Positions 3,902 through 58,938 of a DNA stretch of 64,000 nt are shown in pieces. A program made the position numbers and the translations under genes. Where the stretch lies: positions 2,170,001 through 2,234,000 of the forward strand of contig NEEC01000011.1 of NCBI GenBank assembly GCA_002189035.1, read 5' to 3'. Source of the stretch: Utricularia gibba (Eukaryota > Streptophyta > Magnoliopsida > Lamiales > Lentibulariaceae). The first letter of the stretch is position 1; every line of letters begins with the position of its first letter. Under the pieces are notes generated by a model, which ran no database searches, was not told the DNA's origin, and saw nothing but the letters and a program-made list of their open reading frames with translations.

Positions 3902-4901
3902 CTAAGCAACGCTGAAGGAGCTGGCAGCACTCTCAACGTACCTCTTGGCACCCTTGAACCATCTCTTGTCTCCAGCCTGAACCTTGCAGACATACAGCTT
4001 ACCTTCCTTCACAGCAGCCGTGATCAGGAGATGTTTCCCTCCTTCGTCTCCGTCTGCTGTTCTCGTCAAGACAGACAGGAAGTAGTACGGCGTGCCGGCG
4101 ACGACCGGCGTCGATGTTTCCAGAACATTCGCCGTAGCAACAACTCCTGAGTCGAATCCACCCTGCGGCAGCAGCAACCATTTCAAGGCATGATACATCA
4201 AGTTTGAACCAGAGATGTAGAGCTTTTTTCTACCTCTGAATCAGTCTTCCCGGAGTAAGATTGTTTGCCCAGCAAATAATCCACCTGCATTCAGTTCTAG
4301 GATTTTAAGTATAAAGGGATGAATCCCTTATCAGAAAAGATGGGAACCATATCTCTACCTGGGAGAGAAATCCCTCAGGGGAGCCATAGTCAGTGATCGC
4401 CTTCTTGTCTGTAGGAGAGATCAACACACACAGGTTGCTCGTTCCATCGAAGTTATCCTCATACCGGAGCACCTGCCCAGGATACTCAACCTCCCCACTG
4501 GGATTCCACTTCGCAGGTATAGAGATCTTGAATCCATCACCAACATATGCTTTGAAATCCGTGTTCGCCTTAGGCTTCCCAAATATGTTTGCTGCATTTC
4601 AATCACACCCCGTTAACACAGACTGCATTTCAATATGTTAGTTCCATTCCATCTTACCAGATTCCCCGTAGGCGGCATCTGCAGGGGAGACCTTGGAGGT
4701 GGCGGCAGCAGCTCCGATGAGCACAGTGAGGGCCAGTCTCCTGGACAAAGGAGCCACATTGGCGTCATGGGGTTCATTCTCCCTCTGCTGCGCTCTGCAC
4801 GCGACCTGGGAAGGCCTCAGACAGGGAGCTGATCTCCTTGCAGCGACCGGGATGCCGGCAGCTGCCGCATGGTGATGCAAGAAGCATGAAGTGGAGGCCA
4901 T
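3902..4901 (-). CDS. PSBP: Oxygen-evolving enhancer protein 2 (PsbP), chloroplast precursor
   Basis: PsbP is the ~23-kDa extrinsic subunit of photosystem II in the thylakoid lumen. It helps retain Ca2+ and Cl- at the manganese cluster. Four exons (4901-4658, 4591-4359, 4284-4235, 4162-3902) give a protein of about 260 residues. The N terminus is a Ser/Ala-rich stromal transit peptide. A twin-arginine-like stretch ([15 protein letters not shown]) and a lumenal cleavage site ending ADA before AYGES follow, as expected for Tat import. The mature part has the family blocks [42 protein letters not shown] and a C terminus ending SFSVA. No frame breaks were found. The gene faces away from the reticulon gene across a shared ~1.1-kb upstream region. 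Confidence 0.97.
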
Positions 4902-5986
4902 GGGAAGGGAACTCCTCCTTCTGTGTCCAAAGGAGGATTTTTAAGAGTGAAGAAGACAAGAGATCGGGAAGATGAGATGAAAAGGGATAAGACAAGGGAG
5001 GATCGGTTGGTTTCTAAGCGTCAGGCGTGTAAGATTCCGACGCCAATGAAATAATCAATCCAATGCAGATGAATAATTAAAAATAATTATTATTATTGCA
5101 ATTATTTATTTAAAAATTTAATGAAAAATAACTCGCGGTCATTCGCTTTAAATTGAATTATTTTTTTTAAGACAAGGAAATGCAGGATTCATGTTGACTT
5201 CTTTTGACTTTTGACTTGTCTGTTCAATTCTGAAGTTCAACTTGGCGGCGCTAGGTAAACCAGTGATGATTACGGGGGTTGGTTTTGTCTGTAAGTGGTG
5301 AGGTTATGCCGGCGAAAGATTCATTTTTGGTTGGGGTTCGGCAATTAATTTTGATGGCAGGGGAGGAGTTCATAATCATGGAGCCCAAAAATCATAAAAA
5401 TTCAGTGTGTTGGGTGTGTGGGCACAGCGTGACTTGGCGGGGTGGGGGCTGGGGCAGACATTCATTTAACGTACTCCTCTTCTCCCATTTGCGGAGTGTC
5501 GCCAATCGTTTCGTGACTGCAGTAAAATCGAACTGAAGGGCTTTTTCCTATCGGCTCGGGATCCCTGCTTTTGGTTCTTCATCTTTTCGTCTGGGTATAA
5601 CTTCTTCTTTATGATGACTGCTTTTTGCTTCAGCTGTATCCTGGTCCTTGTGTTTTTTTGGGTGCTGTTTGTATTAACCAGAGGGGATTCTGGTTCTTGG
5701 TTCTTCGCTCATACTTTGTGACTATAAATCATCAAAAAGGATGCGCTTTAGTTGAAAAAGATCCTTCTTTGGTTAAAAAGCATTTCCCCTTTGTTTCTTT
5801 GTTTCGGAGTGGTTGGAGTGAGTAATTTCTTGAAATGGGTTTTGTGTTTAGCTCACCACAGTGCTGGTTGCTACAGTTCCCGCTACTTGGACTTTCAAGT
5901 TCAATATCTCTCTTAAATGCGTTTTCTTCTTATTGGTATCTGCTACTCATCTTCTAACCCTTGTTGTCGTAGATAACTAAGAGAAA
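4902..5986. other. Divergent intergenic region between PsbP and reticulon genes
   Basis: About 1.1 kb separates the two start codons. The half next to PsbP holds its leader and CCAAT-type motifs near 5040-5065, then AT-rich sequence to about 5170. The half next to the reticulon is GC-richer and then T-rich, as expected for a 5' UTR with an intron; a possible acceptor (TTGTCGTAG) lies just before the reticulon start. I saw no other gene. Confidence 0.5.
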
Positions 5987-55193: not shown

Positions 55194-56100
55194 TCATGCA
55201 ACAAAATTCCGAGGATCAGCATCGAACCGTTACGTGAGCCGGGCTTCTTCCCCGTGTTAACAGCTGTCAACCTCGTACACCAATTTCGGCCCATCACTGC
55301 AACTTACTCTCATGAATAAAAAAGGAAAGTTCCTTTTTTGTCTCCATAAATAAGAAATACACCACTATTTTTGGTAGTCTTCGATCCGCATTTAACACAT
55401 GCTTTAAAAATTCTCGCTACCATTTTTAAAATCATTATTCCAATTCCATTTTAATATATAAATAAATTCGAAACTTTGAAGTGACATTTAATTGAAGTTG
55501 AATGGATGCATGTAATTTTACACAGTTGGTCAACTTCTTTTTATAATGTTTCATATTGTGATAATTTTAAATTCTCTCATATATTTAATAATGTTTCTAA
55601 ATTATAATAAATCAAAAAATGAATTAACCTATTTTCAAAATAGTTGTACAGACTAGTGTTTTGGATTCCAATAAAGAGATTGCAAATACAAAAAAAAAAC
55701 ATTAGTATTATAAAAAATCAACAAAAATGAACATGTTGACTTTAGAATACTGTTCCAAAGGAGGCTTCACTGGGGTACTGCATGACTTGAGAAGGTGAGG
55801 CATACATCAGCTGCACACGTCCAGTGAGAAGAAGAGATGAATGATATATCAGCAAGGCACTCTCTCCTAAGATTTCAACAGCCACCAAGCACAGAATGAG
55901 ACACAACACGCAAAATTGGGCAGAGATGAATAGAATGAAACGCATATCAGGTATTTTGTTTTGGCATTTAACTCCAATCTCGTGGAAGTGATGGGGACAA
56001 GAAGCTGACGGCAACACTTCTGGTTTCTGAGTTTTCCAGATCCACAGCCTTTTGATCCGTAGGGTGAGGGTATAGTTAGCTCAACTGCAACACACATAGA
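55194..56100. other. Intergenic region upstream of NDB
   Basis: 55200-55310 is the NDB promoter side. 55320-55740 is AT-rich with no coding signal. A minus-strand frame at 55742-56017 has hydrophobic stretches but no recognised domain; it may be the 3' part of the RNA-array host transcript. Confidence 0.4.
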
Positions 56101-56196
56101 GGTATTAGGATTGTGATCACCTGCAATGCCTTTTCATTATGAGGGCTGTGCCGGATCAGCTCATGCGTTGTCCGGAGTTGCATCACGGGCTAGCGC
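56101..56196 (-). ncRNA. Degenerate fourth copy of the structured repeat
   Basis: It shares with the three full copies the blocks GATCACCTGCAAT, CAGCTCATGCGTTGTCC and GCATCACGGGCTA (plus strand), in the same order. The central CCAAGT...ACTTGG hairpin is replaced by different sequence. On the minus strand the left end reads CCCGTGATGC, like a box C region, but no CTGA box is seen. It looks like an older or diverged family member. Confidence 0.4.
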
Positions 56197-56280
56197 TGGG
56201 ATAAAGAGTATGGCATTCATGTAGTAAAGGGTTTAAATGAGCTTAGTAGAAATATCAATATTCAAATGAACAGTAAGAAT

Positions 56281-56404
56281 GCCTCAGATGGTGGAATATG
56301 ATCATTTACAAAACAGATTCACCAAGTAGGTTCTCTCTGCAGAGCAGAGACTTGGCTTCACTGCAGCTCATATAATTTCCACGGTAGCATCATGGGCTAG
56401 GGCT
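56281..56404 (-). ncRNA. Structured RNA repeat, copy A (candidate box C/D-like)
   Basis: On the minus strand this ~120-nt unit starts GCCCATGATGC (a box C-like ATGATGC) and ends ATCTGAGGC (a box D-like CTGA), with GCC/GGC able to pair as a terminal stem. Inside, GTGGAA pairs with TTCCAC. The centre folds as CCAAG, TCTCT, loop, AGAGA, unpaired bases, then CTTGG. Two further copies repeat this with paired base changes. Strand is inferred from the boxes and from a probable promoter at 57.5 kb. It could also be another class of structured RNA; I cannot match it to a named snoRNA. Confidence 0.5.
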
Positions 56405-56498
56405 ACAATGGGAAAACAACATTCTAGTGACAAAGGTTTAATCGAGGATCCTAGCAATAATAAAAAAAATCAAGTGCACAGCAGGAAGTGAATAGAAG

Positions 56499-56619
56499 GC
56501 CTCAGATGGTGGAATATGATCACCTGCAATACAGATTCACCAAGTAGGTTCTCTCTGCAGAGCAGAGACTTGGCTTCACTGCAGCTCATACATTGTCCAC
56601 AGTAGCATCACAGGCTATG
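56499..56619 (-). ncRNA. Structured RNA repeat, copy B (candidate box C/D-like)
   Basis: The copy closest to A, about 218 bp further on and nearly identical in the core. On the minus strand it opens AGCCTGTGATGC and ends ATCTGAGGCCT, so the C-like box is closer to the RUGAUGA consensus than in A. The inner stem GTGGA/TCCAC and the central TCTCT/AGAGA hairpin are kept. Differences from A lie mostly in loops and in the ATTATATG/CAATGTATG segment. Confidence 0.5.
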
Positions 56620-56666
56620 TTAGATTGATAAAATGCCAATATATACAGTAGACGTAGATAAACACC

Positions 56667-56783
56667 GCCTAGAAATGTGGATTCCGATCACTTGCGGAAC
56701 AGATTCACCAAGTAGGTTCTCCCTTATGATAGGGACTTGGATTCACTGCCGCTCATATACTATCCACACATTCATCACAGGCA
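56667..56783 (-). ncRNA. Structured RNA repeat, copy C (candidate box C/D-like)
   Basis: The most diverged full copy, and the most informative. On the minus strand it has a perfect box C (GTGATGA). Its central stem is TCCCT/AGGGA where A and B have TCTCT/AGAGA, and its inner stem is GTGGAT/ATCCAC where A has GTGGAA/TTCCAC. Both are paired changes that keep the helix. The flanking CCAAGT and ACTTGG are unchanged. The D-like box is altered to CTAG, so this copy may be inactive or the true box D may lie elsewhere. Confidence 0.5.
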
Positions 56784-57261
56784 TTAGTGTTGCACAAGCA
56801 AAAAGAAGGCGCTGCAAAAAAACAGCAACAATAGTCCAGGGGCTCAGTTTTGTGACAGCTATATCAATCATGAATTTTCTGAAGCAGAACTGGCGTATTG
56901 TAGCTGTATAAAAATCATCATAGCCGCAAACTGAGACACAGCATTTCCAATATCACAAAATCCATCCAATCCTGCTCATGACTCATGGTTTGGAAATCTC
57001 AGTAGAGGTAGCAAACTCATAATGACCAAGATCGAATCTTTTTATAGAAATATACGAATTAAAAACCGTTACTGGAATGAAACCATGAGGATCGTATAAA
57101 GCAATAGCACAGACACACAGCAACCAACAGAAATAACGGCATCGAGCCTATATTGCTACCCCTTATCAACTAGCGATTCATAAAGGAACGAGAAAAGGCG
57201 CAATGTGACCGTCAATTTGACACAAATTAGTCGTGAAGAAAGGTACAGTGAGACAAATCTG

Positions 57262-57600
57262 CAACACTAGACGGCGTCTATCTAGCACGAGCATTGGGAC
57301 TCCTTCCTTCATCCTTAAGCTCAGAGGAGCCCGGGTAGCTACATGCAAAATCATCTAAAAAAGAAGCACAATCACAAGCAAGGGGGATTCGCGTCGACTG
57401 CAGCGAACCTAAAACTCGAAAATACTAGGTTTGAAGACAGACGATTGTGCAACCAGCTTTTTGTAGTCATCCCGTCCTGGGCTTAGGGCTCTGCAGCGAG
57501 ATGGGCTCCAGCGGAGCTTCACTCCGGCAGCCACACCCAAAGCGCACATCTCATGGCCCTCAAACCACGGCCCACAATAGGCAGCCCGTCTGCAGCCCAA
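57262..57600 (-). ncRNA. Putative host transcript and promoter for the RNA array
   Basis: Reading the minus strand, GC-rich sequence from about 57600 contains TGGGCC (57569-57574) and TGGGCT (57594-57599) site II elements and a CCCTAAGCCC telo-box-like motif near 57480. These are typical of plant snoRNA and ribosomal gene promoters. Downstream an exon-like segment ends in a short frame closing SSELKDEGRSPNARAR at 57270 or nearby. No conserved protein is recognised, so a non-coding or short-ORF host of the structured repeats is the best reading. Exon limits are uncertain. Confidence 0.35.
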
Positions 57601-58866: not shown

Positions 58867-58938
58867 GGTCCCATGGTCTAGCGGTTAGGACATTGGACTC
58901 TGAATCCAGTAACCCGAGTTCAAATCTCGGTGGGACCT
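58867..58938 (+). tRNA. tRNA-Gln (CUG anticodon)
   Basis: A complete 72-nt cloverleaf: acceptor stem GGTCCCA/TGGGACC, D arm with TCTAGCGGTTAGGA, anticodon loop CTCTGAA presenting CUG, and T arm with GTTCAAATC. The internal A box (TGGTCTAGCGG) and B box (GTTCAAATC) are present. A run of T's begins at 58938, matching a Pol III terminator. No intron and no encoded CCA, as expected for a nuclear gene. It starts 28 bases after the proposed MGCC stop. Confidence 0.98.

Follow-up and report, generated by a model that had tools for sequence, protein, structure and literature searches.

Results

A minus-strand array of repeated elements at 56.1-56.8 kb of a 64-kb stretch of Utricularia gibba DNA (hereafter the window) is best explained as part of a polycistronic snoRNA gene carrying copies of snoZ278, which likely form an orphan, structured C/D snoRNP; we hold this overall reading with considerable confidence. 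The RNA belongs to a known family and the locus is a plant snoRNA cluster of the ordinary sort, its snoZ278 copies being divergent, whereby a repeat that had carried no name becomes a placed snoRNA gene. The family, the cluster, the synteny and the conservation of structure are read directly from the analysis that follows.

The array and its family

A first-pass annotation made from the letters alone had described three full copies and one degenerate copy of an element in tandem. We recovered the same arrangement, namely three full copies of ~117 nt and one decayed copy, both from repeat families (D1-D4; copy-to-copy spacings of 185, 218, and 168 bp) and with a covariance model, R1, which was built from the full copies and run on the 64-kb window. 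R1 matched at exactly four places, all of them copies of the array, the match to the fourth being weak (E 0.008). The elements are as follows.

56281..56397, minus strand: copy A, snoZ278-like (RF00201 33.9 bits, full length; fold z -3.0)
56499..56615, minus strand: copy B, snoZ278-like (RF00201 33.6 bits, full length; fold z -3.2)
56667..56782, minus strand: copy C, snoZ278-like (RF00201 22.7 bits; from the alignment)
about 56094..56215, minus strand: degenerate fourth copy, D (R1 20.5 bits at 56094-56190; repeat D4)

Copies A and B are 91.5% identical. The first-pass annotation had also proposed box C-like and box D-like ends with GCC/GGC terminal pairing, a claim that held in part. The terminal stem GCC/GGC is present in A, B, and C, with 93% of its cells paired. 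Box C, for which the consensus in box C/D snoRNAs is RUGAUGA near the 5' end, reads TGATGA in only one window copy, C, and in both paralogues on contig C328 (see below), whereas A, B, and D have TGATGC. Box D (CTGA), near the 3' end, is kept in A, B, and both C328 paralogues but is broken in copy C, where the loss of one base has turned CTGA into CTA (TTTCTAGGC), box C and the hairpin of this copy being intact; the fourth copy is without the central hairpin and without box D. We observed, too, that copy C (56667-56782) keeps the paired change of its inner stem despite the broken box D. Copy C is probably decaying, and its state suggests recent loss following a period of constraint.

Rfam RF00201 describes snoZ278, a plant box C/D snoRNA, by a model of 115 positions with a curated cut-off of 36 bits. 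At a relaxed threshold, an Rfam search, which had been put forward as a check, aligned A, B, and C with RF00201 end to end (positions 1-115 of 115). Their scores all lie below the cut-off, so routine annotation would miss them, and curated cut-offs of this kind thus miss divergent snoZ278 copies. The earlier statement that no known RNA could be recognised is overturned, since the RNA is Rfam snoZ278, lying between snoR134, Z223, and snoR97; an unknown RNA class is ruled out by the RF00201 match. A genome search with RF00201 found two further copies, on contig C328, at 36.9 and 36.0 bits, the second only just meeting the cut-off; they are 78-85% identical to the window copies. Because the cluster is duplicated and the C328 copies score at or over the cut-off, the window copies belong, on grounds of homology, to the snoZ278 family, although their scores stay a little short of the automatic cut-off.

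The window copies share with snoZ278 their length, the GCC/GGC terminal stem, the positions of boxes C and D, and the CAAGU..ACUUG hairpin with the invariant AGAACCUACUUG, in addition to the end-to-end alignment. They differ in scoring 2-13 bits under the cut-off and in the sequence proximal to box D. Further, annotation in the RF00201 model is confined to the terminal stem and the apical hairpin, whereas the copies support additional inner stems (columns 17-21/102-106, 28-30/97-99, and 34-37/82-85), so that a fuller covarying structure is now given for this poorly studied family. Among the open papers searched, the sole one to combine Z278 with snoRNA was a study of DNA methylation in cotton, which names no target in what it says on Z278.

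The cluster, its probable promoter, and a paralogous locus

The proposal of a minus-strand C/D snoRNA cluster was borne out by the RF00201 match and by the genes that flank the array. The features of the cluster outside the array are as follows.

57478..57599, minus strand: site II motifs TGGGCC/TGGGCT/AGCCCA (57594-57599, 57569-57574, 57502-57507, and 57478-57483)
57483..57490, minus strand: telo-like box AGCCCTAA upstream of the cluster (motif scan; same 8-mer upstream of the C328 cluster)
57201..57348, minus strand: snoR134, H/ACA snoRNA, first gene of the cluster (RF01430, 93.1 bits versus a cut-off of 40)
56837..56929, minus strand: snoZ223, C/D snoRNA (RF00135, 62.3 bits versus a cut-off of 45)
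55951..56061, minus strand: snoR97, H/ACA snoRNA, last recognised gene of the cluster (RF01215, 54.4 bits versus a cut-off of 40)

In the window and at C328 alike, snoR134, Z223, and snoR97 score well over their Rfam cut-offs, and the gene order in both loci is snoR134, Z223, Z278 array, snoR97, with four array copies in the window versus two at C328. The same NAD(P)H-dehydrogenase-like gene is present downstream of both clusters; its window copy has a Pyr_redox_2 domain, and over 1.97 kb the gene is 80% identical in DNA sequence between the loci. The same gene order, together with the 80% identical neighbouring gene, indicates that the two loci arose by duplication of a single cluster.

In each locus, AGCCCTAA and site II motifs of the TGGGCC type precede snoR134, joined at C328 by a TATA box. 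The pairing of a telo box with site II motifs is a mark of plant snoRNA promoters (PMC3022908), and the site II and telo-like motifs here likely constitute a Pol II snoRNA promoter. Because the window has a telo-like variant of the motif and not the exact AAACCCTA, the promoter evidence is supportive but short of proof. No exons were recognised overlapping the window cluster. In its consecutive genes of both C/D and H/ACA type, its promoter motifs, and the lack of a recognised host-gene exon, the window cluster resembles those polycistronic snoRNA clusters of plants whose promoters combine a telo box with site II motifs, from which it differs in nothing notable. A tRNA-Gln gene (anticodon CTG; 58867-58938, plus strand) stands soon after the end of an upstream protein reading frame; it is on the strand opposite to the cluster and forms no tRNA-snoRNA pair with it.

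Conservation of the RNA structure

The structure was assessed on the five genomic copies (three from the window and two from C328) and comprises 26 pairs. Standard pairs are formed in 98.4% of its cells, versus 39-50% in slid controls, and three pairs are changed on both sides among the five copies, which, small though these numbers are, supports the earlier claim of selection on RNA structure. Both of the paired changes first noted by eye are real. First, columns 50/62 show a C-G/U-A swap, where A and B read TCTCT/AGAGA and C and both paralogues TCCCT/AGGGA; as the first two are near duplicates, this swap is probably one event. Second, columns 21/102 in the inner stem show an A-U/U-A swap between A and C, the pair being broken in copy B. 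When the RF00201 consensus was added as a further row, the number of pairs changed on both sides rose to seven, a value reached in 0 of 500 shuffles, although this result is indicative, as the added row is a model consensus and not a real RNA. With respect to folding against shuffled sequences, A and B gave z of about -3 and C gave -2.2, and the degenerate copy folded no better than its shuffles (z +0.9).

The stem that joins the stretch after box C to the stretch before box D reads GTGGA/TCCAC here and GCCC/GGGC in the RF00201 consensus; the stem is retained while its letters change, whole pairs being exchanged between the copies and the Rfam consensus. Invariant columns are distributed differently between the two parts of the RNA, amounting to 42 of 52 in the long hairpin versus 14 of 25 in the stretch upstream of box D. 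The longest block in common with the RF00201 consensus is AGAACCUACUUG, in which ACUUG pairs with CAAGU and AGAACCU forms a 7-nt side loop. By these measures the long helix is the conserved core of the RNA, and the earlier remark that a simple C/D guide would not usually have so long an internal helix is strengthened. Separately, we note that UACUUGGUGAAU occurs in all full copies (window 56281-56782; C328 locus 2627-2935) and is absent from the RF00201 consensus. In the same sense it has a likeness to part of plant 5.8S rRNA, probably by chance.

Discussion

The state of the individual copies raises the question of which of them are functional. In the window array, duplicates that may be active seem to stand beside others in decay, and the array may be partly inactive, given that copy C is without box D and that A and B have TGATGC; because copy C has lost its box D and box C of A and B is imperfect, the best working copies may be those of the paralogous C328 cluster. 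A stronger version, in which the whole window array consists of pseudogenes and the working snoRNA comes from the C328 copies only, is in our view somewhat unlikely. The missing box D of C, the missing hairpin and box D of the fourth copy, the off-consensus box C of A and B, and the RF00201 scores under the cut-off would all fit it, but A and B keep box D, the terminal stem, and the whole hairpin, carry the compensatory U-A swap, and fold better than shuffled sequences.

For a polycistronic snoRNA gene with a snoZ278 array, we infer the following course of transcription, protein binding, and function of the Z278-type RNAs. A Pol II-type promoter would give rise to one precursor, from which the individual snoRNAs would be trimmed. 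In the Z278-type RNA, the C/D core proteins would, judging from the boxes, assemble on the C/D kink-turn, which the GCC/GGC terminal stem closes, and the conserved functional part would be the long central hairpin, one strand of which is the invariant AGAACCUACUUG. The snoRNP would then act in the folding, processing, or non-standard modification of pre-rRNA and not in the ordinary guiding of 2'-O-methylation. In a standard methylation guide, the most conserved antisense element would be located in the stretch that precedes box D. Because conservation here resides in the hairpin and not upstream of box D, and because the pre-box-D stretch is itself paired with compensatory changes, the RNA is most likely an orphan, structured C/D snoRNP rather than a standard methylation guide. 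A more specific reading, which we consider possible but somewhat less likely than not, is that snoZ278 is a structured C/D snoRNP that guides no methylation and in which the invariant AGAACCU loop, in a long C'/D'-like hairpin, has another role in plant ribosome assembly, for example in rRNA folding or base modification. If the orphan reading is true, the part conserved in this C/D snoRNA would be something other than a methylation antisense element.

It is rather improbable that the RNA is instead a canonical 2'-O-methylation guide, with the pre-box-D stretch AUCAUAUUCCACYAU pairing with rRNA or snRNA. Boxes C and D and the terminal stem are present, most C/D snoRNAs guide methylation, and the clustermate Z223 matches a hand-typed piece of 25S over 15 bp; a canonical methylation target in 25S is possible. 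However, the AUCAUAUUCCACYAU stretch shows no conservation with the RF00201 consensus, varies more among the copies than the hairpin does, and is internally paired. Complementarity upstream of box D, which the first-pass annotation had suggested looking for, was sought against a hand-typed 18S only, a guide being expected to have 10-21 nt of rRNA or snRNA complementarity adjoining D or D'; the best runs of pairing with 18S did not exceed those of a shuffled snoRNA.

We regard as very unlikely a role as a guide of rRNA acetylation like yeast snR4/snR45 or U13, which would direct Kre33/NAT10 to helix 34 or 45 of 18S. In snoRNAs of the snR4/snR45 type, a helical region bridges the non-canonical D' and C' (PMC5464676), an architecture of which the Z278 copies are reminiscent, and yeast snR4/snR45 and vertebrate and plant U13 are, like them, C/D snoRNAs of the orphan type in which the internal helices are long and D' is poor. 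The sequences differ, however, and the Z278 copies have no matching bipartite 18S complementarity: at either 18S site, only scattered matches of 5-7 bp were seen, which is the chance level, and none was a bipartite match flanking the acetylated C of helix 34 or 45 (hand-typed 18S), so that this candidate was rejected. Further, plant U13 orthologues have already been described, going by the title of Kim et al. (2010).

Finally, a transposon fragment or other mobile repeat, which the tandem copies might have suggested and which had been named in advance as a way for the snoRNA interpretation to fail, is ruled out by genomic copy number, as the 100-Mb assembly holds five matches, all within two syntenic snoRNA clusters, and the 12-nt core occurs 16 times, i.e. 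less often than the reversed-pattern control (26 times). The core pattern is absent from the viral sequence collection. Elsewhere in the genome, the locus C255:259000-268900 contains, near its positions 4850-5200, pieces of degenerate 18S and 25S rDNA that are fused in odd order within ordinary DNA. These pieces (at ~264 kb) are no working unit but an rDNA fragment insertion, about 93% identical to a hand-typed stretch of plant 18S.
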